Below, one piece after another: positions 3,774 through 58,330 of a stretch of 64,000 nt of DNA (the stretch's first letter is position 1; every line of letters starts with the position of its first letter). Where the stretch lies: assembly GCA_963457665.1 (NCBI GenBank), contig OY735206.1, forward strand, positions 53,255,412 to 53,319,411, given 5' to 3'. Both the position numbers and the translations under genes were made by a program. This stretch comes from Thysanoteuthis rhombus (taxonomy: Eukaryota; Mollusca; Cephalopoda; Oegopsida; Thysanoteuthidae). Below the pieces are notes generated by a model. It ran no database searches and was not told the origin of the DNA. It saw nothing but the letters and a program-made list of their open reading frames with translations.

Positions 3774-4110
3774 GTCTGGCAGCTGCAGTGTCAAATTCTA
3801 CTCCCACTTCTATTACAACTGAAGATGGCTGGTGCAACTTTTGTATTGTATATACAATAAATAAATTCGTACATGTATAAGACTAGTCAGTTTGATTTAG
3901 TTGGGAAGAGAGTCACCTAGCAATCTCTAGGCTGAGATTTCAAATCACTGCTAGGAAATGTCAATTTTATATACATCTTTGGTTTAAACAATTTTATATA
4001 TCTCTTTGAATAGACAAACAGTGGATAGTTGACCCTAAATTTGGTGAGGATTGTTCTTGTTACAGTTAAAAAAATCAAGTCAATTCCAATTTGGACAGGA
4101 GTTGAACAAA
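3774..4110 (+). mobile_element. tRNA-derived dimeric SINE, copy 1
   Basis: The first module begins CTGGCAGCTGCAGTGTCAA and runs into an AT-rich stretch (ATAAATAAATTC). The second module carries a tRNA-like promoter: an A-box-like TTTAGTTGGGAAGAGAG near 3895-3911 and a B-box-like GATTTCAAATCACTG near 3938-3952. The tail contains TTTGGTGAGGATTGTTCTTG. The same order of modules recurs at 11850, 30446 and, more decayed, at 58143, so the two-module arrangement is the element's own structure. It does not code for protein. Confidence 0.7.

Positions 4111-4891: not shown

Positions 4892-4921
<30 letters not shown>
4892..4921. repeat. (AAT)n tract between two LINE copies
   Basis: Ten AAT units join the 3' end of the solo 3'-UTR fragment to the truncated 5' end of copy A. 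Confidence 0.95.
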
Positions 4922-4925
<4 letters not shown>

Positions 4926-7900
4926 GCAAGCCTTCAGTGCGATCTTATAGAGAGCGTATGCTCCAAATATGGAGGGAAAAATCTGCTGTGGAAGTATCGA
5001 ACCAACGCCTTGCTGACCAAGTAAAACAAATCCAAAAGAAGAAATGGCTGTCTGAGACTGAACTACTAGAGATTCGCATTAATGTAGAGAGAGATTCAGG
5101 TGACACACCTGATGAATGCCCCCCTAGCACAACTAGTACCAACATTAAAGCTGGAAGAATTCCCCATGAGGCCCCCACAGTAAACTATGCACCAGAGGGT
5201 GACGACGAGGCACCAACGAAAGAAGAGAAAACCAAAATACAAGCTTTGAAAGAAATCATGCGAGGAGAGAAAACAACACTCCCCTCCCTAAGAGACAAAG
5301 ACAGAAAGAAAGTCGGAGAAGTGACCGAACAGGTCAACTGCCTCTTACAGCACATAGAAACGAACACCCTCCTAGAACTCAACAACTTAATTTACGCTGG
5401 GGCGAAAATGGTAGCACAAAGCTTCACAACACAAGATAGGACCCCGAGCAATAATAGGGAAGAGAAACCCATGTGGGAGAGAAGATTACAAAGGCAGATC
5501 TCCCAACTACAGAGAGATGAAGTACTGCTTAGAAACACACCACACACGGACAGACCACGAGTAAGACTTTGGAACAAATACAAGGTAACGCAAAAAGGCA
5601 TAGCAACTGTAGTCGAAGAGTTACACCAGAAAAGACTAGCCAAAGAGGCAAGACTGAAAAGATACAGACTAAGAACGGCCCAATACACACAAAACCGCAC
5701 ATTCCAAAACAATGAGAAGAAGTTTTACCAAGATTTAAATGGGGAAAGAAGGCAGGACATGAAACCAGATGCCACAGAGGCCAAGAACTGTTGGAATAGC
5801 ATATGGGGGCACCCCAAAAAACATAACGTAACACCGCAATGGTTAGGAAACATGAGAAAAGAACTCGAAGATATAGACAAGGGAGAACCAATAGTACTGA
5901 ATGAAACCACATTGAAACATACTCTTAGGAAAGTAGCCAACTGGAAAGCACCGGGTCCCGACGGGATCCATGGGTATTGGATCAAAAAATTCACCACGTT
6001 ACACGGCAGACTCACCCACCAACTCCAAAATTGTCTAAACGAAGGCAAGGCTCCAGAATGGATGACTAAAGGCAGAACCACCCTCATCCAAAAAGACCCA
6101 GAAAAAGGGAACATAGCAAGCAACTATAGACCAATTACGTGCTTACCACTTATGTGGAAAATCCTGAAATAGCAGAGAGAATATACATGTCAATGGATAG
6201 AAGGGGACTACTACCAGAAGAACAGAAAGGGTGTAGGATAGGAACCAAAGGGGCAAACGATTTACTCTGTATAGACCAGATGATCTTAAGAGAAGTGAGG
6301 AAAAGGAGAAAGAATATCGCAATGGGATGGATAGATTACAAAAAAGCGTACGATATGATTCCACATAGCTGGATACTCGAACGCCTTAGAATGTTCAAAA
6401 TTAGCGAACCGGTGGTTAAATTCATTGGTAATTCGATGGAAGACTGGAAAGTAGATTTGACAGCCGCAGGGGACAAACTAGCAGAGGGAGGGATAAAAAG
6501 GGGAATCTTCCAAGGAGACTCGTTGTCCCCACTATTATTTGTTCTAACAATGATACCACTCAACAGAATCCTGAAAAACAGCAAAGGATACCACTTCTCT
6601 AAAACAAAAGGAAAGGTCAACCACTTAATGTACATGGACGATATAAAATTGTTCGCAAAAAACAGGGGAGAGCTTGAGACTCTGTTCAACGAAGTAAGGG
6701 AATATAGTGAGGACATAGGAATGGAGTTTGGAATAGACAAATGTGCTATCATGGTGATGCACAAAGGAAGGCTTTCAATGACTGAAGGAATTGAACTCCC
6801 GAACAACAGCAAGATTAGGGCATTAACCGCACAAGACCGATGCAAATACCTAGGTGTCCTTGAATGTGACACGATAAAACGGGGAGAGATGAAGGAGAAA
6901 ATAAAGAGAGAATACCTCAGAAGGATAAGGAAAGTATTAGAAACCAAATTAAACAGCAGAAATCTAATAAAAGGAATGAACACCTGGGCTGTGTCAGTAG
7001 TTAGGTATACAGGACCATTCCTAGGGTGGACAAAGGAAGAGCTCCAATCAATGGATAGGCGAACAAGGAAACTTACGACGATGCATAAAGCATTACACCC
7101 TAGAGATGATACAGATAGACCATACGTTAAGAGAAAAGAAGGTGGCAGGGGGCTCATCAGCATAGAAGATTGTGTCCAGAGAGCTAAAGTAGTCCTAGAA
7201 AGATATGTGCAAACAAATAGTGAAGAAATCATAAAGAGCGCGAGAGATAGTGCAGCAAGCAATAAAGTAGAAAACAATGGAACAGTACAACAAACAAGAA
7301 AAGAAAGATGGGAAGCGAAAAAATTGTACGGCGAGTTTAAAAGACAGATACATGATGTAGCAGACGAGAAATCATGGACGTGGTTACGAAAGGGGAACCT
7401 TAAGAGAGAAACAGAATCGCTCATCATGGCAGCCCAAAACAAAAGCATAAGGACAAACTACATAAAAACAAAAATCGACAGAACACAGACAAACAGCAAA
7501 TGCCGCATGTGCGGTGAAAGAGATGAGACAGTAAACCACATAACTAGTGAATGTAGTCAACTCGCCCAGAAGGAGTATAAGCATAGACACGATAGAGTGG
7601 CAACGATGATACACTGGGAACTAAGTAAACAAATGGGATTCAACCATGGGGAAAAGTGGTATCAGCACAAGCCAGAGGCAGTTTTGGAGAATGACAACCA
7701 CAAACTACTGTGGGACTTTGACATCCAAACTGACCACCTCATCCAGGCAAGAAGACCAGACTTAGTAATTGTAGACAAAAAAAGGAAGGTCTGCCGAATA
7801 GTAGACGTTGCTGTACCTGCGGACCATAGAGTAAAAAAGAAGGAGGGTGGAAAAAGGGAAAAATACCAGGACCTAGCAAGGGAGTTGAGGAAAATGTGGA

Positions 7901-8067
7901 ACATGAAAACCAGGGTAGTACCGGTCATAGTGGGAGCACTAGGAACTGTCCCCAAAACGCTGAGGGAGAGACTGGAGGAGATCGGGATTAGGGGGAGGAT
8001 AGAGACCGTACAGACCACAGCACTACTGGGAACTGCACGGATACTGAGGAAGGTGCTAGAGATATAA
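4922..8067 (+). pseudogene. R4/Dong-like LINE copy A: Myb/RT/zinc-finger/RLE protein, broken by a frameshift
   Basis: This is the coding part of a site-preferring non-LTR retrotransposon. Compared with the intact copy at 46497-49718 it lacks the first 24 codons, starting at KSKPSVRS directly after (AAT)n. A 7-bp deletion near 6166 turns ...MWKILTGQIAERIY... into a stop (TAG at 6170-6172) and shifts the rest into another frame, which continues to 8067. The reverse-transcriptase core is intact downstream: the WIDYKKAYD block (about 6326-6352), FQGDSLSPLLF, and the catalytic YMDD near 6631-6642. It is followed by a CCHC-type finger (CRMCGERDETVNH, about 7504-7542) and the restriction-like endonuclease motif RRPDLVIVD (about 7750-7776). 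Identity to copy C is very high apart from the deletion, so the copy is young but dead. The open frame formally extends upstream through the AAT tract into the neighbouring 3' UTR; that part is not genuine coding sequence. Confidence 0.9.
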
Positions 8068-8309
8068 GTACTGCAACGAATAGTAGCTCTGTCATGATAT
8101 GCGAAAGAGGGAGGAGACGTTAGCTGAGGACCTGAGGAGACTTATTGTCACTCAGCCTTCAGCGATAACCACTGGGCAACCGGTGTGAAACTGTAAATCG
8201 CAGAATTACTGCGACCTATGAGTACTAGGAGAGGAGGGCTGGAGACTTGAGGAGACTTGCTGTCACTCAAACTCCAGCGGTTACCACCAGGCAACTGGTT
8301 TGAGATTCC

Positions 8310-8310
<1 letters not shown>
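8068..8310 (+). mobile_element. 3' UTR of LINE copy A with a 60-bp internal direct repeat
   Basis: The region from the stop codon to the AAT tail contains two direct copies of a 60-bp block at 8134-8193 and 8249-8308. Both start GAGGAGACTT and share TGTCACTCA, CCAGCG/TTCAGCG, TACCAC and GGCAAC. The repeat is present in every copy of this LINE in the window. In this class the 3' UTR RNA is what the reverse transcriptase binds during target-primed reverse transcription, so the duplicated block may be that recognition structure (inference). Confidence 0.8.
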
Positions 8311-8347
<37 letters not shown>

Positions 8348-11849: not shown

Positions 11850-12200
11850 TACCAGCCTGGCTGCTGCAGGGTCAGCCCTTATTCCTACTTCTATCATAAC
11901 TGAAAGTGATTACTGCAACTTTTGTATGATATATTATATATATAGTAAATCATTTTTTTTATAAATGTATCAATTTATTAGAATGAAATAAGCCATCGCG
12001 TATTTGTAACATAGATTTTCATAGACTTGTCAACTTAGCTCAATTGGTAAAATACCACCCTACCAATGAGTCGGTCATGATTTGAAAGATAGGTGAATGG
12101 TGACTTTTACCCCCCACCCCTGCCTGCCCAAATTTGATGAAGATTGTTCTTGTTCTTATTACGGTAGTAAACTTGGACTGGGGTTGGGCGAAAACATACG
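11850..12200 (+). mobile_element. tRNA-derived dimeric SINE, copy 2
   Basis: The first module starts CTGGCTGCTGCAGGGTCAG. The second module has an A-box-like TTAGCTCAATTGGTAAAAT (about 12035-12053) and a degraded B-box-like GTCATGATTTGAAAG (about 12073-12087). The tail has AAATTTGATGAAGATTGTTC and CTTGGACTGGGGTTGG, as in the other copies. The tRNA-like head is recognisable, but this is not a functional tRNA because no acceptor stem can be drawn. Confidence 0.7.
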
Positions 12201-24109: not shown

Positions 24110-24214
24110 AGTTGATCTTTGCCCAGTTTACATACAGAATATCAGGTTGATAGGACTTGTAGTTTTAGCAAAGAAGAGGTTCAGCTACTACGCGAACAAA
24201 AAGCTCAAATATTA

Positions 24215-24272
<58 letters not shown>

Positions 24273-24515
24273 TCGTGGAAAAGTTGATAATATGAAAAAA
24301 AAAAAAAAAGACTTGAGATCATTCAGTACATGACAATTCTTATTATCATTACAGGGTGTAATAACTCACGTACGTTTCACCCGTTGAAACTCCAGGTTTC
24401 GTCAGAGCTAGGAGAACGAAAGTCGCTTTGAGAAAAATTTCCCTTTTTTCCCCATATTGTCGAGTTTGCTACATACTGTCGGATATACACCCTTTCCCCT
24501 CACACATAACCACAT
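24110..24515. mobile_element. Inverted-repeat element R, copy 1, with hammerhead-like core
   Basis: The left part (TGATCTTTGCCCAG ... AATATTAGTACATATA) is homologous to 37039-37150. The right part, after a (TA)n(TG)n tract at 24219-24271, is homologous to 40515-40765 and ends TGTCGGATATACACCCTTTC. The arms around 24275-24300 and 24440-24460 are imperfect inverted repeats (GATAATATG / CATATTGTC). The middle, on the minus strand, contains CTGACGA (24399-24405) and GAAACGTACGT (24368-24378), flanked by TAGCT (complement of 24406-24410) and AGTTA (complement of 24362-24366). No ORF. Confidence 0.6.
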
Positions 24516-30445: not shown

Positions 30446-30760
30446 AAGCCTGGCTGCTGCAGGGTCAAACTCCAGTACTACTCCTATTCCGTCAGGAGAT
30501 GGTTACTGCAATTTTTGTATTTTATATATATAAAAAATAAATTCTTAGACATACAAGAATTGTCTGCCTTGGCTCAGTAGGTGAGAGGGCCGCCTCGCTA
30601 TTATTTAATCGTGATTTCAAATCACGGCTGGGAAGTAGTTAATCTTATATTTTTCATATATATGGGGTTGGTTTAACGTGAAAGGATAGGCAAGAAGTGA
30701 AGAATTTACCCACCTAAATCCAACTTGGACTGGAGCTTGACAATAAAATCCGACCATCGT
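30446..30760 (+). mobile_element. tRNA-derived dimeric SINE, copy 3
   Basis: The first module starts CCTGGCTGCTGCAGGGTCAA (30449). The second module has the clearest tRNA-like promoter of the set: TTGGCTCAGTAGGTGAGAG (about 30568-30586) and GTGATTTCAAATCACGG (about 30611-30627). The tail contains ACTTGGACTGGAGCTTGAC. The overlapping minus-strand open frame 30617-31012 is partly SINE and was not called as a gene. Confidence 0.75.
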
Positions 30761-37029: not shown

Positions 37030-37190
37030 TAAACTATGTTTGATCTTTTCCCAGTCTCCATGTATAACATTTGATCGATGGACCTTGCAGTTTTAGCGGA
37101 GAAGAGGTGCACATAGACAAACAAAAGGCTAAAATATTAGTACATATATACTAATAGTATACTATGGTATATATATATATATATATATAA
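37030..37190. mobile_element. Inverted-repeat element R, copy 2, left part
   Basis: TGATCTTTTCCCAG, then TTTTAGCGGAGAAGAGGT, then AAAATATTAGTACATATATA match 24115-24230. The TA tract at 37165-37189 is where the Penelope-like element begins. Confidence 0.65.
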
Positions 37191-37273
37191 TGTGTACTTT
37201 AGAGAGTGAGACAGACTCGGGAGTGAAGTTTTTGGTGGTAAGGTTTATTAATCCTTATTTGTCAATAGTCCAT

Positions 37274-37302
37274 ACATGTTTCGAGATTTCTCTCATCATC
37301 AG
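37274..37302 (-). ncRNA. Hammerhead-ribozyme-like motif in the Penelope-like element
   Basis: On the minus strand CTGATGAT is followed by a perfect 4-bp hairpin (GAGA, loop, TCTC) and GAAACATGTA. This resembles the hammerhead core CUGANGA - stem II - GAAA - short stem III - NUH. One extra nucleotide separates CTGATGA from stem II, so activity is uncertain. Hammerhead motifs are an established feature of Penelope-like elements. Confidence 0.5.
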
Positions 37303-37761
37303 TGGTGCGTGTTGTGTGAGTGTGAATTAAAATGTACCATGTGGAACCAGAGTCCACTGTCAGCGGCTATGCATTGTGGGTAGGTTTTGTTGTCAGGGCT
37401 ACAAGAGGCCTCATGCTGAATGTAAGAATGACCAGCAGGTATTGGGATTTTGGTAAAGCAGCAGCAGTTGGACTTGGGGAGGGCAGAGTGTGTCAAGGTG
37501 GGGGGTAGTGTTGGGGAGGTGGGTTTTTTGGTATGTTTGGGATAGTATAGAAGGAGGGGTGGTGGAGTCAAGGAGCTACATAGGTATCAACCTTAAAAGT
37601 TACTGAAGATGTTGCTGAAAGTGTTTTAGCTAAGAATTGGACAGGGGTTGTAACAGGCTAAGGTGAAGTTTTTCCTATGGGTCTAGGTGACTTTGAAGCT
37701 TCCATTATTGAGTGTGTCTAAGATGTGGGTGTGAGGATATTAATGGTAGGATTTGTGTGTA

Positions 37762-40008
37762 TTAGTGTTCTGTGTGGTGCGGGTTGTTCAGTTTAGTATT
37801 TAATCCATTAGGGTATAGGGTTTTAAGTTTGTTGATCCACATGTCTTCGTGTTTTTCTAGAACTTTAGTTATGTCAATTGGAGTAGTTTTTTCTATTTTT
37901 TCTATGATGGTGAAGGTGGCATCAGTGGCAAAATTGTGGTCAGGTGTGCGGAAATGTAGTTCTACAGGGAGTGGGCTACGGTTATTTTTTGACTTAATCC
38001 TATGTCTATAATTGTTGAGTCTAATATTAAATTGCCACTCGGACTTGCCAATGTACTGTAACTTACACCTATTGCACTCTAGAAGGTATATAATGTTCTT
38101 ACTGCGGCAGTTGCTATTGTGGTATATGTGGTAACTCACTTTTGTGGTGGTGCTTGTGAATGTGTTGGTGTGCTTGAGGTGGTTGCAACATAGACTGTTT
38201 CTTATGTTGCAAGGTGTGCAGAAATTAATTGTTCTAGGTGTATTTTTGTGTACGACTTTATTGTTAACGATAGTATTGCTACTAATCATGTCTCTGATGT
38301 TTTTGGGTCTGCGGTAGGAGATAACACATGGGTCTGTGAATGTTTCTTTTAGATCTGTTTTGATCGTGAGAATGTTCCATCTATTATTGATGATGTGTGC
38401 TAAGGGTGGGAGTGTGTTGTTGAAGGTTGTTATAAGGGGTATGCGGTTGGGTTTGTTATTGCGGGACAGTAAAAGGGTTTGATCTCTGGGTATTCCAGTC
38501 GCTTTTTTTATTTGTTTTTTTGTGTCATCTAGTGGATAACCTCGTTGGGTGAAATATTGTATTAGGTTATGTTTGTGTCTGTTAAGTTCACTATTGGTGG
38601 AGCAGATTCTTCTAATTCTAAGAGCTTGTGAAAATGGTAGACTCCTTTTTAAGTGTTGGGGATGGGCTGATTTGGAGTGGAGGTAATTGTGGGTGTCCGT
38701 GGGTTTTGTGTAGAGGGTGGTATGGAGGTTTCTGTTGTCATCTATATATATGCGTGTGTCTAAGAAGGCTATGGAGTCAGTGGATGTTGTGAAGTCAAAC
38801 TTAATAGAGTCATGTGCCGAGTTTAGATGTATAAAGAAGTTATCTAGTTTGGTTTTTTCGCCTGTATATATGAAAAAAATGTCGTCTATGTATCTACCAT
38901 AAAAGATGCAGTCATTATAAATCTCTGGGTAAATGTAGGTTTCTTCAAATTTACCCATGAAGATATTAGCATAGGATGGGGCCGCTACTGTGCCCATGGC
39001 GCAGCCTTTCACCTGGAGGAAGTGTCTATTATTAAAGTTAAAGCTATTTAGGGTTAGAATGTGGTGCATAAGAGTGGTGATTGTTCTAGTGCTAGGTTCT
39101 TTAGTAGTTCTATTGTTTAAGGCTTCTGTCAGTGCTAGGATACCTTCGTCATGTTTGATGTTGGAGTATAGGGATTTAACATCCATACTAACTAGAAGTG
39201 CTTTGTCTGGGATTGCTGTGATGTGTTTGATTTTGTTTAGGAGGTCTGTGGTGTCACGTATATATGATTTGATTTGTGTTGCTAAGGGTTGTATGTAGTG
39301 ATCTACAAATTTTGATAGTTTAGTAGTGTGGCAGTTCGTGGAGGAGATGACTGGTCTACCTGGGTTATTTGGCTTGTGGATTTTGGGGAGTAGGTAGAAC
39401 CTTGCGGGTTTTGTGGAAGTGGGTTTCAGTATATTCTGTGTTCTTTTGTCTATCATGTTGCTATTGTGTAATTCTGTTAGGGATTGGGTTATTGTGTTTA
39501 TGTATTCGTTAAAGGGGTCTATGGGGAGTTCTCTGTAGAATTCTGTGTTGCTTAATTGTAAGTTAGCTTCTGTGAGGTATTCATCTAGACCCCAGATGAC
39601 TATGGATCCACCCTTATCTGCTCTTGTGATGATCAAGTTTGTGTTGTTTTTTAGTTTATTAAGGGCCTTTCGCTCTTTAGTTGTAAGGTTATCACGTGTT
39701 AGGGTTTGTGGTGTGTTATTGTTGATGTAGGTTTTTATGTCATCTCTGACGGCTAGCTCAAAAGTTTGAATGGTTGTGTCTATGTTTTTTGGGGTGAAAG
39801 ATTTGTTGGGGTCTTTAAGCCTATCAAGGATGTCACTGTCGTGGCCTGTTTTCCCAAAGTGGGCTCTAAGTTTGATCCTTCTGAAGAAGTCATAGAGATC
39901 TTTGTTGAGGGTGTGATTGCTGAAGTGTGGGGGTCGGGGACAGAAATTAAGGCCCTTGTTAAGGAGTTTGAATGTGTCCCTAGTAAATCGAAATTTACTT
40001 AGGTTCAT
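37762..40008 (-). CDS. Penelope-like element reverse transcriptase with GIY-YIG endonuclease
   Basis: A 748-aa protein that would copy the element's RNA into DNA and nick the target. The reverse-transcriptase part shows TRADKGG (residues 128-134), FYLLPKIHKP (204-213), the motif-A region MDVKSLYSNI (275-284, catalytic D276), AMGTVAAPSYANIFM (337-351) and the catalytic YIDDIFF (373-379, D375-D376). A linker holds clustered cysteines (FCTPC...SLCCNH, 596-610). The C-terminal GIY-YIG domain follows: IIYLLECNRCKLQYIG (639-654), an R in NIRLNNYRHR (661-670) and E683. This order and the LPKIHKP signature are diagnostic of endonuclease-bearing Penelope-like elements. The ATG at 40008 overlaps the stop of the upstream ORF (TAATG). 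The N-terminus is slightly short for the family, so the upstream ORF may supply the missing part. There are no internal stops, which implies recent or current activity. Confidence 0.93.
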   Translation of the reverse strand: MNLSKFRFTRDTFKLLNKGLNFCPRPPHFSNHTLNKDLYDFFRRIKLRAHFGKTGHDSDILDRLKDPNKSFTPKNIDTTIQTFELAVRDDIKTYINNNTPQTLTRDNLTTKERKALNKLKNNTNLIITRADKGGSIVIWGLDEYLTEANLQLSNTEFYRELPIDPFNEYINTITQSLTELHNSNMIDKRTQNILKPTSTKPARFYLLPKIHKPNNPGRPVISSTNCHTTKLSKFVDHYIQPLATQIKSYIRDTTDLLNKIKHITAIPDKALLVSMDVKSLYSNIKHDEGILALTEALNNRTTKEPSTRTITTLMHHILTLNSFNFNNRHFLQVKGCAMGTVAAPSYANIFMGKFEETYIYPEIYNDCIFYGRYIDDIFFIYTGEKTKLDNFFIHLNSAHDSIKFDFTTSTDSIAFLDTRIYIDDNRNLHTTLYTKPTDTHNYLHSKSAHPQHLKRSLPFSQALRIRRICSTNSELNRHKHNLIQYFTQRGYPLDDTKKQIKKATGIPRDQTLLLSRNNKPNRIPLITTFNNTLPPLAHIINNRWNILTIKTDLKETFTDPCVISYRRPKNIRDMISSNTIVNNKVVHKNTPRTINFCTPCNIRNSLCCNHLKHTNTFTSTTTKVSYHIYHNSNCRSKNIIYLLECNRCKLQYIGKSEWQFNIRLNNYRHRIKSKNNRSPLPVELHFRTPDHNFATDATFTIIEKIEKTTPIDITKVLEKHEDMWINKLKTLYPNGLNTKLNNPHHTEH

Positions 40009-40451
40009 TACTTTCCCTTCTGGGTCTTCCTTAATTCTGATGGTGTGTAGTAGTGTTTTAGTAAGTTTTCTAAACTGCTTACTAGTGTTGGAATCAGGTT
40101 TTCTAACCCCCCTTCCATATTTAGTGGTAGGGGGGTTTCCTCGTTTTTTGGTAGAGTGTGTGTGTGGGTTGATGTAGGGGTTACCTGCTGGTCAGGGTGT
40201 TTGCCTGGGTCTTCAGGATGCTTTTGAAGGGTCAATGTGGTGGGTTGAGGAAGGATGCTACTCTTAGGGCTTTCCTTTTGCAGAGTATGAGGGGTAGTAG
40301 GTCTGAGAACCTTGTGGCGGCTAGTGTTCTTGTTGCTATTATCTGTATGCTGGTTTTTGTAGTTGTGTTTGTTCATATAGCTGTGTCTGTTCACAGTATT
40401 GGTGTCAGTAGTATTAGTATTTGAGTAGGTGTTCCTGTTGTGTTTGTTCAT
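40008..40451 (-). CDS. Upstream ORF of the Penelope-like element
   Basis: A 147-aa, Asn/Thr/His-rich protein with repetitive YMNKHN / NTNT-type segments at its N-terminus and a more ordinary C-terminal third (GLENLIPTLVSSLENLLKHYY). Its stop codon overlaps the start codon of the RT ORF by one base (TAATG at 40010-40006), in a different frame. No domain is recognised. It could be a separate ORF1, an N-terminal extension made by frameshifting, or an accidental open frame in low-complexity DNA. The tight stop/start overlap favours a translated unit, but the low-complexity N-terminus weakens the case. Confidence 0.45.
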   Translation of the reverse strand: MNKHNRNTYSNTNTTDTNTVNRHSYMNKHNYKNQHTDNSNKNTSRHKVLRPTTPHTLQKESPKSSILPQPTTLTLQKHPEDPGKHPDQQVTPTSTHTHTLPKNEETPLPLNMEGGLENLIPTLVSSLENLLKHYYTPSELRKTQKGK

Positions 40452-40514
40452 ATGTGTGTGTCTGTTATAGGTGTTAGTACTGTTAGTGCCAGTGTAGGTG
40501 TTTTTGTTTTGTTT

Positions 40515-40765
40515 GTATATATTGTGAAAAAGTTGACTATATGGAAAAGATAGAAAAGACTTGAAACTACTTAGTACTTCTCAATTGTTTTACACCAGCG
40601 GGATTAGTTTTCCTAGCTTTGACGAAACCCAGAGTCCCACAGCTGAAACGTGCGTAAGCTATTACAATTTTTAATGAAACAAAATTGAGATGTACTAAGA
40701 CTTTTTCATTTATTCCATATTTTCACATTTTGTCGGATATAAATCCTTTTCCTTCACACATACAC
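40515..40765. mobile_element. Inverted-repeat element R, copy 2, right part, with hammerhead-like core
   Basis: Starts GTGAAAAAGTTGACTATATG (compare GTGGAAAAGTTGATAATATG at 24271) and ends TGTCGGATATAAATCCTTTTC (compare 24478). The core on the plus strand reads TAGCT (40614-40618), TTTGACGA, a degenerate stem, GAAA (40645-40648), CGTGCGTA and AGCTA (40657-40661). The two flanking pentamers are perfect complements. Arms at about 40555-40590 and 40685-40710 are inverted repeats of each other. Confidence 0.6.
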
Positions 40766-44843: not shown

Positions 44844-45055
44844 GCGTCTGCTCGGTTAGTTTAATGGCTAACACGTCTGTCTCACATACAGAAGGTCCTA
44901 GGTTCGATTCCTGGTATGACAATCCTGCCAATAATAACTTGTCGGCGTAGAGTCGTGGTCTCGACTTGCAAGGAAACCATGACTTCGTCACCGGTCGTCA
45001 TATTCCTTCAGGGGTTGTCTCTTCAGTGATGTGACATTTTACCTTACCTTTTGGT
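44844..45055 (+). mobile_element. tRNA-Val-like SINE or tRNA pseudogene
   Basis: Most of a tRNA cloverleaf can be drawn: D stem GTTAG/CTAAC (44855-44859, 44868-44872), anticodon stem TCTGT/ACAGA with loop CTCACAT (44876-44892, anticodon CAC = Val), and T stem CTAGG/CCTGG with loop TTCGATT (44898-44914). The acceptor stem does not pair (GTCTGCT against TATGACA). A 130-bp unrelated tail rich in GTCGTGGTCTCGACTTGC follows. It is therefore a SINE head derived from a tRNA rather than a working tRNA gene. Confidence 0.7.
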
Positions 45056-46232: not shown

Positions 46233-46253
46233 CAATTATTATCATTATTATTT
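46233..46253. repeat. Short (ATT)n tract at the 3' end of LINE copy C
   Basis: AATTATTATCATTATTATTT, equivalent to the AAT tail on the minus strand. Confidence 0.85.
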
Positions 46254-49200
46254 CGGAATCTCACACCAGTTGCCTGGTGGTAACCGCTGGAGTTTGAGTG
46301 ACAGCAAGTCTCCTCAAGTCTCCAGCCCTCCTCTCCTATTACCCATAAGTCGCAGTAATTCTACGATTTACAGTTTCACACCGGTTGCCCAGTGGTTATC
46401 GCTGAAGGCTGAGTGACAATAAGTCTCCTCAGGTCCTCAGCTAACGTCTCCTCCCTCTTTCGCATATCATGACAGAGCTACTATTCGTTGCAGTGCTTAT
46501 ATCTCTAGCACCTTCCTCAGTATCCGTGCAGTTCCAAGTAGCGCTGTGGTCTGTACGGTCTCTATCCTCCCCCTAATCCCGATCTCCTCCAGTCTCTCCC
46601 TCAGCGTTTTGGGGACAGTTCCTAGTGCGCCCACTATGACCGGTACTACCCTGGTTTTCATGTTCCACATTTTCCTTAACTCCCTTGCTAAGTCCTGGTA
46701 TTTTTCCCTTTTTTCACCCTCCTTCTTTTTTACTCTATGGTCTGCAGGTACAGCAACGTCTACTATTTGGCAGGCCTTCCTTTTTTTGTCTACTATTACT
46801 AAGTCCGGCCTTCTTGCCTGGATGAGGTGGTCAGTTTGGATGTCAAAGTCCCACAGTAGTTTGTGGTTGTCATTCTCCAAAACTGCCTCTGGCTTGTGCT
46901 GATACCACTTTTCCCCATGGTTGAATCCCATTTGTTTACTTAGTTCCCAGTGTATCATCGTTGCTACTCTATCGTGTCTATGCTTATACTCCTTCTGGGC
47001 GAGCTGACTACATTCACTAGTTATGTGGTTTACTGTCTCATCTCTTTCACCGCACATGCGGCATTTGCTGTTTGTCTGTGTTCTGTCGATTTTAGCTTTT
47101 ATGTAGTTTGTCCTTATGCTTTTGTTTTGGGCTGCCATGATGAGCGATTCTGTTTCTCTCTTAAGGTTTCCCTTTCGTAACCACGTCCATGATTTCTCGT
47201 CTGCTATATCTTTTATCTGTCTTTTAAACTCGCCGTACAATTTTTTCCCTTCCCACTTTTCTTTTCTAGTTTGCTGTACCGTTCCATTGCTTTCTACTTT
47301 GTTTGTTGCACTATCCCTCGCGCTCTTTATGATTTCTTCACTATTTGTTTGCACATATTTATCTAGGACTACTTTAGCTCTCTGGACACAATCTTCTATG
47401 CTGATGAGCCCCCTACCACCTTCTTTTCTCTTAACGTATAGTCTATCTGTATCATCCCTAGGGTGTAATGCTTTATGCATCGTCATAAGTTTCCTTGTTC
47501 GCCTATCCATTGATTGGAGCTCTTCCTTTGTCCATCCTAGGAATGGTCCTGTATACCTAACTACTGACACAGCCCAGGTGTTCATTCCTTTTATTAGATT
47601 TCTGCTATTTAATTTGGTTTCTAATATTTTCCTTATCCTTCTAAGGTATTCCCTCTTAATTTTCTCCTTCATCTCTTCCCGTTTTATCGTGTCACATTCA
47701 AGGACACCTAGGTACTTGTATCGGTCTTGTGCAGTCAATGCCCTAATCTTGTTGTTGTCCGGAAGTTCAATTCCCTCAGTCATTGAAAGCCTTCCTTTGT
47801 GCATTACCATGATTGCGCATTTTTCTATCCCAAACTCCATTCCTATGTCATCACTATATTCCCTTACTTCGTTTAACAGAGTCTCAAGCTCTCCCCTGTT
47901 TTTCGCAAACAATTTAATATCGTCCATGTACATTAAGTGGTTGACCTTTCCTTTTGTTTTAGAGAAGTGGTATCCTTTGCTGTTTTTCAGGATTCTGTTA
48001 AGCGGTATCATTGTTAGAACAAATAATAGTGGGGACAACGAGTCTCCTTGGAAGATCCCCCTTTTTATCCCTACCTCGGCTAGTTTGTCCCCTGCGGCTG
48101 TCAAATCTACTTTCCAGTCTTCCATTGAATTACCAATGAATTTAACCACCGGTTCGCTAATTTTGAACATTCTAAGGCATTCGAGTATCCAGCTATGTGG
48201 AATCATATCGTATGCCTTTTTGTAATCTATCCATCCCATTGCGATATTCTTTCTCCTTTTCCTTACTTCTTTTAAGATCGTCTGGTCTATGTAGAGTAAA
48301 TCGTTTGCCCCTTTGGTTCCTATCCTACACCCTTTCTGTTCTTCTGGTAGTAGCCCCCTTCTATCCATTGACATGTATATTCTCTCTGCTATTTGCCCGG
48401 TCAGGATTTTCCACATAAGTGGTAGGCAAGTGATTGGTCTATAGTTGCTTGCTATGTTCCCCTTTTCTGGGTCTTTTTGGATGAGGGTGGTTCTGCCTTT
48501 AGTCATCCATTCTGGTGCTTTGCCTTCATTCAGACAATTTTGGAGTAGGTGAGTGAGTCTGCCGTGTAACGTGGTAAATTTTTTGAACCAATACCCATGG
48601 ATCCCGTCGGGCCCCGGTGCTTTCCAGTTGGCTACTTTCCTAAGAGTATGTTTCAATGTGGTTTCATTCAGTACTATTGGTTCTCCCTTGTCTATATCTC
48701 CTAGTTCTTTTCTCATGTTTCCTAACCATTGCGGTGTTACGTTATGTCTTTTTGGGTGCCCCCATATGCTATTCCAATAGTTCTTGGCCTCTGTGGCATC
48801 TGGTTTCATGTCCTGCCTTCTTTCCCCATTTAAATCTCGGTAAAACTTTTTCTCATTGTTTTGGAATGTGCGGTTTTGTGTGTATTGGGCCGTTCTTAGT
48901 CTGTATCTTTTTAGTCTTGCCTCTTTGGCTAGTCTTTTCTGGTGTAACTCTTCGACTACAGTTGCGATGCCTTTTTGCGTTACCTTGTATTTGTTATAAA
49001 GTCTTACTCGTGGTCTGTCTGTGTGTGTTGTATTTCTAAGCAGTACTTCATCTCTCTGTAGTAGGGAGATCTGCCTTTGTAACCTTCTCTCCCAGTTGGG
49101 TTTCCCTTCCCTATTATTGCTCGGGTTCCTATCTTGTGTTGTAAAGCTTTGTGCTACCATTTTCGCCCCTGCGTAAATTAGGTTGTTAAGTTCTAGGAGG

Positions 49201-49766
49201 GTGTTTGTTTCTATGTGATGTAAGAGGCAGTTGACCTGCTCGGTCACTTCTCCGACTTTCTTTCTGTCTTTGTCTCTTAGGGAGGGGAGTGTTGTTTTCT
49301 CTCCTCGCATGATCTCTTTCAAAGCTTGTATTTTGGTGTTCTCTTCTTCCGTTGGTGCCTCGTCATCACCCTCTGATACATAGCTTACTGTGGGGGTCTC
49401 ATGGGGAGTTATTCTAGTTTTGTTATTGGTACTAATTGTGCTGGGGGGGCATTCTTCAGATGTGTCACCTGAACCTCTCTCTACATTAATGCGAATCTCT
49501 AGTAGTTCAGTCTCAGACAGCCATTTCTTCTTTTGAATTTGCTTTACTTGGTCAGCAAGGCGTTGGTTCGATACTTCCACATCAGATTTTTCCCTCCATA
49601 TTTGGAGCATACGCTCCCTATAAGATCGCACTGAAGGCTTGCTTTTAAAGTAACAATACATAACTAGCCTATTCTCCTCCCTTGTCCATCTCTTTCTCTT
49701 GTTTTTTATAGCAGTCACTCCGAGAGGACCGCGCCTTCCCTGGGTGTCGTTAGTGGTATATGAGTC
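46254..49766 (-). mobile_element. R4/Dong-like LINE copy C, near full-length, minus strand
   Basis: A 3.5-kb element bounded on both sides by (ATT)n. It carries a short 5' leader of about 50 bp, one uninterrupted ORF of 1073 codons, and a 3' UTR (46254-46496) with the 60-bp internal repeat. Placement in TAA repeats and the single RLE-type ORF match the R4/Dong lineage, whose founding member Dong of Bombyx mori inserts in TAA repeats. Confidence 0.9.
46497..49718 (-). CDS. R4/Dong-like LINE polyprotein: Myb-like, RT, CCHC finger, restriction-like endonuclease
   Basis: A 1073-aa protein that would nick target DNA and reverse transcribe the element there. Domains in order: a Myb-like DNA-binding segment with regularly spaced Trp (RKRWTREENRLV, W11, to W41 and W66); a basic linker; and the reverse transcriptase with WKAPGPDG (365-372), WIDYKKAYD (496-504, catalytic D498), FQGDSLSPLLF (556-566), YMDD (597-600, D599-D600) and KYLGV (668-672). 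A CX2CX8HX4C finger follows (C886, C889, H898, C903), then the restriction-like endonuclease core RRPDLVIVD (969-977) with D987, the P-D...D pattern of R2/R4-type LINEs. The frame opens at a TAA inside the AAT tract. The codon at 49718 is GTG, and the first in-frame ATG is residue 20, inside the Myb-like segment. Translation therefore starts at a non-AUG codon or the true start is lost. No stops or frameshifts occur, so the copy looks recent. Confidence 0.93.
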   Translation of the reverse strand: MTAIKNKRKRWTREENRLVMYCYFKSKPSVRSYRERMLQIWREKSDVEVSNQRLADQVKQIQKKKWLSETELLEIRINVERGSGDTSEECPPSTISTNNKTRITPHETPTVSYVSEGDDEAPTEEENTKIQALKEIMRGEKTTLPSLRDKDRKKVGEVTEQVNCLLHHIETNTLLELNNLIYAGAKMVAQSFTTQDRNPSNNREGKPNWERRLQRQISLLQRDEVLLRNTTHTDRPRVRLYNKYKVTQKGIATVVEELHQKRLAKEARLKRYRLRTAQYTQNRTFQNNEKKFYRDLNGERRQDMKPDATEAKNYWNSIWGHPKRHNVTPQWLGNMRKELGDIDKGEPIVLNETTLKHTLRKVANWKAPGPDGIHGYWFKKFTTLHGRLTHLLQNCLNEGKAPEWMTKGRTTLIQKDPEKGNIASNYRPITCLPLMWKILTGQIAERIYMSMDRRGLLPEEQKGCRIGTKGANDLLYIDQTILKEVRKRRKNIAMGWIDYKKAYDMIPHSWILECLRMFKISEPVVKFIGNSMEDWKVDLTAAGDKLAEVGIKRGIFQGDSLSPLLFVLTMIPLNRILKNSKGYHFSKTKGKVNHLMYMDDIKLFAKNRGELETLLNEVREYSDDIGMEFGIEKCAIMVMHKGRLSMTEGIELPDNNKIRALTAQDRYKYLGVLECDTIKREEMKEKIKREYLRRIRKILETKLNSRNLIKGMNTWAVSVVRYTGPFLGWTKEELQSMDRRTRKLMTMHKALHPRDDTDRLYVKRKEGGRGLISIEDCVQRAKVVLDKYVQTNSEEIIKSARDSATNKVESNGTVQQTRKEKWEGKKLYGEFKRQIKDIADEKSWTWLRKGNLKRETESLIMAAQNKSIRTNYIKAKIDRTQTNSKCRMCGERDETVNHITSECSQLAQKEYKHRHDRVATMIHWELSKQMGFNHGEKWYQHKPEAVLENDNHKLLWDFDIQTDHLIQARRPDLVIVDKKRKACQIVDVAVPADHRVKKKEGEKREKYQDLARELRKMWNMKTRVVPVIVGALGTVPKTLRERLEEIGIRGRIETVQTTALLGTARILRKVLEI

Positions 49767-58142: not shown

Positions 58143-58330
58143 ACGCCCGGCAGGTGTTGGGCTAAAATCCACTTTTATGCCTGTTCCAACAGAAGCTGAT
58201 AACTGCAACGTCTGGATTGTATATAGGAAAAAAAAAATACATAAAATATATATTTTTTAGAACAAATGGTCTTGATTTCAGTTAGGAAATGTTAATTTTA
58301 TGAATGTGTTTATCTATCAGAATGAAATAA
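58143..58330 (+). mobile_element. tRNA-derived dimeric SINE, copy 4 (decayed)
   Basis: First-module landmarks are GCAGGTGTTGGGCTAAAATC and AGCTGATAACTGCAACGTC. The tRNA-like part is reduced to TCTTGATTTCAGTTAGGAAATG. It then shows AGAATGAAATAATCCCTTACGTATTT, also present in copy 2 at about 11980-12005. Confidence 0.55.

Follow-up and report, generated by a model that had tools for sequence, protein, structure and literature searches.

Penelope-like elements (PLEs) reportedly carry minimal type-I hammerhead ribozymes, which Cervera and De la Pena (2014) and Lunse et al. (2017) are said to have described. According to the available parts of PMC6155905 and PMC7761336, these hammerheads are without helix III and possibly act as dimers. 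For the Penelope element of Adineta vaga, the available text of PMC3846280 gives adjacent inverted pseudo-LTRs (pLTRs), an optional 31-bp tail at one of them, and head-to-head as the commonest arrangement. For an anole PLE, the available parts of PMC11167929 state that both strands are cleaved and extended, that reverse transcription starts from two adjacent internal sites matching the genomic tail, that the start site did not differ between the two strands, and that the hammerhead lies at the junction of pLTR and ORF. The same parts report that hammerhead mutants kept inserting in vitro, so the ribozyme may be dispensable for insertion, and that no reads ended at the presumptive cleavage site. 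These start-site, mutant and read-end results, as far as they are given there, limit what can be claimed about the role of the ribozyme in the family described below.

We analysed a repeat family, called R, in the genome of Thysanoteuthis rhombus, starting from two copies in a stretch of 64,000 nucleotides (the window). We are highly confident that R represents the 3' end (the pLTR region) of PLEs with an endonuclease, from an old family that has since decayed. R is therefore an already known kind of element, and its palindromic look is thereby mostly ordinary. Like the endonuclease-bearing PLEs of the Penelope/Poseidon type, it shows remains of a GIY-YIG endonuclease, inverted pLTRs placed head to head, a tail of about 30 nt at one end and a minimal hammerhead in the pLTR. 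Unlike them, the R copies that were read upstream appear 5'-truncated or decayed, and no reverse transcriptase (RT) domain was recovered. The arm that follows the hammerhead (the 3' arm, D) has no ORF start that we noticed by eye, in contrast to the PAc layout as given in the available part of PMC11167929. With the minimal type-I hammerheads of PLEs, the R motif shares the core nucleotides, stems I and II and the lack of a proper monomeric stem III; it differs from them, as does the motif of a young PLE in the window, by an additional nucleotide between A9 and stem II.

Copies of R in the window and the repeats beside them

Both window copies consist of two inverted halves. In copy 1, the core-bearing half is on the minus strand, with the 3' arm running to the short (untailed) end at 24273..24365 (nhmmer match to D positions 2-91) and the hammerhead-like core at 24362..24415, in which stem I pairs 24410-24406 with 24366-24362. 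The opposite half, at 24443..24504 on the plus strand, is a truncated 3' arm (D 60-124) followed by a tail of about 29 nt. In copy 2, the inverted and shorter half (40520..40602, minus strand) carries D 11-93 and reaches the short end. The hammerhead-like core of this copy (40609..40661, plus strand), which contains the motif cited in the original prediction, has its predicted cleavage site after 40656, and the longer half (40657..40759, plus strand) consists of D 1-125 and again a tail of about 29 nt. The tail is on the right in both copies, and the core belongs to the short half at 24 kb and to the tailed half at 40 kb.

The original prediction had read a hammerhead-like core between inverted arms from the letters of the window, and this reading of the letters is correct. 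CTGACGA is found on the minus strand at 24405-24399 and TTGACGA on the plus strand at 40619-40625, both accompanied by GAAA and the ACGTNCGT stem III. The closing pentamers are TAGCT:AGCTA at 40 kb (40614-40618 and 40657-40661) and TAGCT:AGTTA, with one G-U pair, at 24 kb (24410-24406 and 24366-24362). The arms are inverted and the cores of the two copies are oppositely oriented, as had been claimed. A search pattern for the hammerhead with closing pentamers matched twice in the window and not once in 100 dinucleotide shuffles. Judged by the standard hammerhead rules, both window cores are probably inactive now. The core of copy 1 is intact, but its position 17 (24367) is G, and it is probably not cleavable; that of copy 2 has T at C3 (40619) and a disrupted stem II, and is probably dead.

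Two other parts of the original prediction fell away. What had been taken as the left arm, at 24110..24215 and 37030..37155 (both on the plus strand), lies outside R and represents a separate dispersed repeat, 'A', which ends in (TA)n and gave 302 first-look candidates. None of the 29 other loci fetched with 'A' has a ribozyme or an R 3' arm, and we rejected 'A' as an arm of R; within the 84 R loci defined below it was detected (E<1e-4) only at the two window copies and at L060. The gap of 37190-40515 within the 40-kb copy is not R sequence either. It is a young PLE (37168..40516, minus strand) with sharp ends at both positions, situated between the (TA)n of 'A' and R copy 2, and its insertion split the copy of the original prediction in two.

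The young PLE contains an 809-aa stop-to-stop frame (40191-37762, stop included) that matches RVT_1 with an E-value of 2.9e-14 and GIY-YIG weakly (20 bits against a cut-off of 22.6), and it has a hammerhead-like motif of its own at about 37305-37270. When its 3' end (query 37150-37420) was searched in the genome and the best 40 of 1521 candidates were scored, 39 other places were identical (100%) over 253-254 bases, with a sharp edge that lies at 37168 in all but one of them, where it is at 37167. Its far end (query 40380-40520) gave 39 other places at 96-100%, all of which stop at 40516, among the best 40 of 420 candidates. From this sequence similarity, the element was probably active recently. 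The frame has 1558 protein relatives (E<=0.001) among 7988 candidates scored, and a search of PDB with it returned no match. At G000:C15:2937238-2937534 the 3' end of the young PLE occurs twice, in tail-to-tail orientation and 12 bp apart; the second of these ends is only 32 bp long.

Some further features of the window were recorded. A large inverted duplication (4921-8312 and 46252-49647) has three adjoining arms of about 1.06-1.25 kb with 95-97% complementarity, and more partial copies of it are present near 10-11 kb and 49.8-51.2 kb. Units of about 61 bp are repeated in tandem over 700-1727. At 44857-44914 there is a tRNA-like match (Rfam RF00005, 35.1 bits), which is either a gene or the head of a SINE. 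Finally, an 88-nt repeat occurs four times (3776-3863, 11857-11944, 30450-30537 and 58147-58234), the others being 65-75% identical to the first.

Family structure and coding remains

Genome searches (2.73 Gb in 514 contigs) revealed R as a large dispersed family; one query alone gave 1906 first-look candidates, of which the best 40 were scored. In total 117 loci were read, comprising 115 fetched loci and the two window copies, and five fetched loci were dropped as duplicates of the window copies or of other loci. A hammerhead core or a 3' arm was detected at E<1e-3 in 84 of the 117, and this limit missed L094, L095, L098 and L102 among the 88 loci outside the 'A' fetch. R copies were chosen as best matches, and the counts given here describe a non-random sample. 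In the sense of the hammerhead, the parts follow each other in the order T - V - U - core (C) - 3' arm (D) in many copies.

The first of these parts is decayed coding sequence. T translates as ...TIIQRPGNFQFAPxLAK..., and this frame matches 11 loci besides L071 (E<1e-3). From the QRPG motif, we take R to belong to the Penelope/Poseidon type clade of PLEs. Upstream of T are the remains of a GIY-YIG endonuclease (YKVPCQNCNLIYIGET...EH...), a peptide present in L071 and in L098-L104, of which L100-L104 were fetched on account of their match to it. When compared with Pfam, GIY-YIG was recognised in L102 with 25.3 bits (E 1.9e-5), above the cut-off of 22.6, and in L100 with 21.3 bits (E 3.5e-4), slightly under it. 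There was no GIY-YIG match in L071, no match of any kind in L103 and L104, and none for the 33-aa QRPG piece of L098. In the genome, the endonuclease peptide gave 1949 first-look candidates, and the best 150 matches were scored. By comparing the tables of T and endonuclease matches, we found an endonuclease match directly upstream and on the same strand for at least 8 of 39 T matches (L071's own locus left out), which is a lower bound obtained from the best matches scored. Visual inspection of the frames that lie upstream of the endonuclease in L100-L104 revealed no recognisable RT domain. Apart from these copies, two endonuclease-like matches, at G000:C1:37767542-37767706 and G000:C20:35137467-35137613, lie in open frames of 1742 and 1721 aa, far longer than the others, and the one in G000:C20 has two internal stops.

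The hammerhead motif across the family

The motif is read in the order stem I, CTGANGA, one extra nucleotide, stem II, GAAA, ACGTNCGT, the cleavage site and stem I again. We aligned 63 cores, namely the matches at E<=0.02 spanning at least 41 model positions. Core nucleotides are conserved at 92% on average, compared with 86% for stem I, 81% for stem II and 82% for stem III. With CpG columns excluded, the values become 93, 86, 88 and 90% respectively, the figure for stem III coming from two columns only. The core is intact in 33 of the 63 copies, and 11 of these also have paired stems and a site that can be cleaved. Stem pairs form in 77.3% of the cells, compared with 18-33% when the partners are slid against each other. 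Covariation in the stems of these 63 cores showed no excess over shuffles, as is expected for copies that decayed after insertion. Loop II is shorter in some copies with stem II largely retained, for example in L088. We read the hammerhead of R as an ancestral functional motif that is now decaying in dead copies, and the pairing and the conservation of the core nucleotides support a hammerhead-like core as a feature of the ancestral family.

As to its mode of action, the consensus together with a second copy is predicted to fold as a double hammerhead in which ACGUACGU is paired intermolecularly. A dimer is the likely form of the R hammerhead. For the 24-kb copy and for the motif of the young PLE, the best predicted dimer fold was not the double-hammerhead arrangement. 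Rfam, at its gathering thresholds and at relaxed ones, returned no hammerhead family, even at E<=10 for the two window regions and 8 loci; such a match does not define the fold. The sub-threshold matches were mostly to miRNA models, apparently on simple repeats.

A third hammerhead-like motif, CTGAAGATGGGA...GAAACAT, was observed in L002 (about 1247, minus strand), L031 (about 1331, plus strand) and L058 (about 1126, plus strand), loci that had been fetched for other reasons. It also has one extra nucleotide before stem II and is possibly derived from a third PLE family.

Head-to-head junctions and a proposed origin of the inverted copies

Strand switches between consecutive parts less than 400 bp apart were counted 38 times in the 84 loci, and 37 of them are head to head; the remaining one, in L047, is tail to tail. 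The head-to-head breakpoints fall at many sites, including D-/C+, U-/U+, V-/V+, V-/T+ and D-/U+ among the first 31 listed. At the outer side, the ends of D are bimodal (n=115), with 56 short ends (80-104), 53 long ends (110 or more) and 6 elsewhere. The arm thus stops at about 95 (short) or at about 124 (tailed), and the tail is about 29 nt long. A dinucleotide repeat directly follows 18 of the 56 short ends and 11 of the 53 long ends; among 5000 40-mers drawn at random from these loci, the share was 3.9%.

The two kinds of ends are not combined freely. Of the 29 inverted pairs, 27 could be assigned to a class: 22 combine a short with a long end, five are short at both ends, and none is long at both, which is the tail pattern published for PLEs. 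If the ends were independent, at least 22 mixed pairs would arise with P=4e-4. Two of the five two-short pairs have an end at 104, and these may be eroded tails. With stricter end limits there were 18 mixed and 2 two-short pairs, with 9 of the 29 pairs unclassified; with looser limits there were 22 mixed, 5 two-short and one two-long pair (L050, ends 121 and 109). Fifteen mixed pairs have cores of a single orientation; 8 of them carry the core in the tailed half and 7 in the short half, as is to be expected if the longer half may be either of the two.

We propose the following origin for these copies. The ancestral element would have ended with an ORF (a GIY-YIG endonuclease and a QRPG-containing C-terminus), about 250 nt of 3' UTR and a minimal type-I hammerhead, whose self-complementary stem III (ACGUACGU) would have suited it to cleavage as a dimer. 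Past the hammerhead, about 95 nt would lead to the short end or about 124 nt to the tailed end, which we take as two start sites of reverse transcription. The target, often AT-rich or microsatellite DNA, would probably be cut on both strands by the element protein, and the two free 3' ends would prime reverse transcription within the element RNA. The two cDNAs would then extend unequal distances towards the 5' end of the RNA and be joined, giving a head-to-head copy with unequal halves. The arms would be the outward 3' ends, and the core would show up in whichever half reaches far enough. The sequences themselves show how the parts are ordered, the remains of the ORF, the polarity of the junctions, both classes of ends and the pairing of the stems; initiation on both strands, the joining of the cDNAs and dimeric cleavage by the ribozyme are inferred. 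We consider priming on both strands more probable than not. That the rule of at most one tail reflects an ordered priming of the target strands, each at its own start site on the PLE RNA, is offered only tentatively.

The identity of R would be the same if the head-to-head copies had arisen on an antisense template, by self-priming or by template switching. This route differs in mechanism only; for the Penelope element of Adineta vaga it was put forward on the basis of palindromes located at inverted junctions (PMC3846280, in its available part). We regard it as somewhat unlikely, for 22 of the 27 pairs combine a short with a tailed end, which suits two separate initiations more naturally. A literature search pairing 'twin priming' with 'Penelope' gave no title concerning PLE insertion.

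It is very improbable that R is instead a metazoan retrozyme, a non-autonomous hammerhead element that is arranged in short direct tandem repeats and spreads by way of circular RNA. R does share with metazoan retrozymes, as described in the available part of PMC7229834, a type-I hammerhead in a dispersed repeat, and it differs from them in showing no direct tandem cores in the 84 loci, in its inverted copies and in its linkage to a PLE ORF. PLEs have also been proposed as retrozyme helpers, according to the available text of PMC7761336. In L119 two R 3' arms of the same orientation (507-608 and 772-847) lie 163 bp apart, the sole such case in the 84 R loci, and this one locus speaks for the retrozyme reading. 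On the other side, none of the 84 loci, most of them 1-4 kb long, has two detected cores of the same orientation within 1500 bp (three have two in opposite orientation, 68 have one and 13 have none), and coding remains lie upstream. We therefore reject this reading for its lack of direct tandem cores. Hardly credible at all is a small foldback- or MITE-like palindromic element whose core was inverted by recombination or site-specific inversion: both window copies do have inverted arms around oppositely oriented cores, but it is largely contradicted by breakpoints that occur at many places and are not confined to the arms, by the tail that only one of the two arms bears in 22 of the 27 pairs that could be classified, and by the decayed PLE ORF upstream. 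We reject it for these reasons.

With R as a PLE, the observation behind the original prediction is sound for the most part, and its reading as a new flipping element is not. The ribozyme-like nucleotides are conserved in the family alignment of 63 cores. The 'flip' of the core is not a true one, given the orientation of 8:7 relative to the tailed end. What had looked like the arms of a small palindromic element are the outward 3' ends of head-to-head PLE insertions with variable breakpoints, and since the halves are unequal, the apparent flip only tells which half is longer.

Ordinary PLE integration can thus yield an eye-catching 'flipping ribozyme palindrome'. R provides a large and countable set of fossil insertions that bears on how PLEs prime both DNA strands, a step that is poorly understood. 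If the one-tail rule is true, old genomic copies such as these would be a record of an ordered two-strand mechanism.
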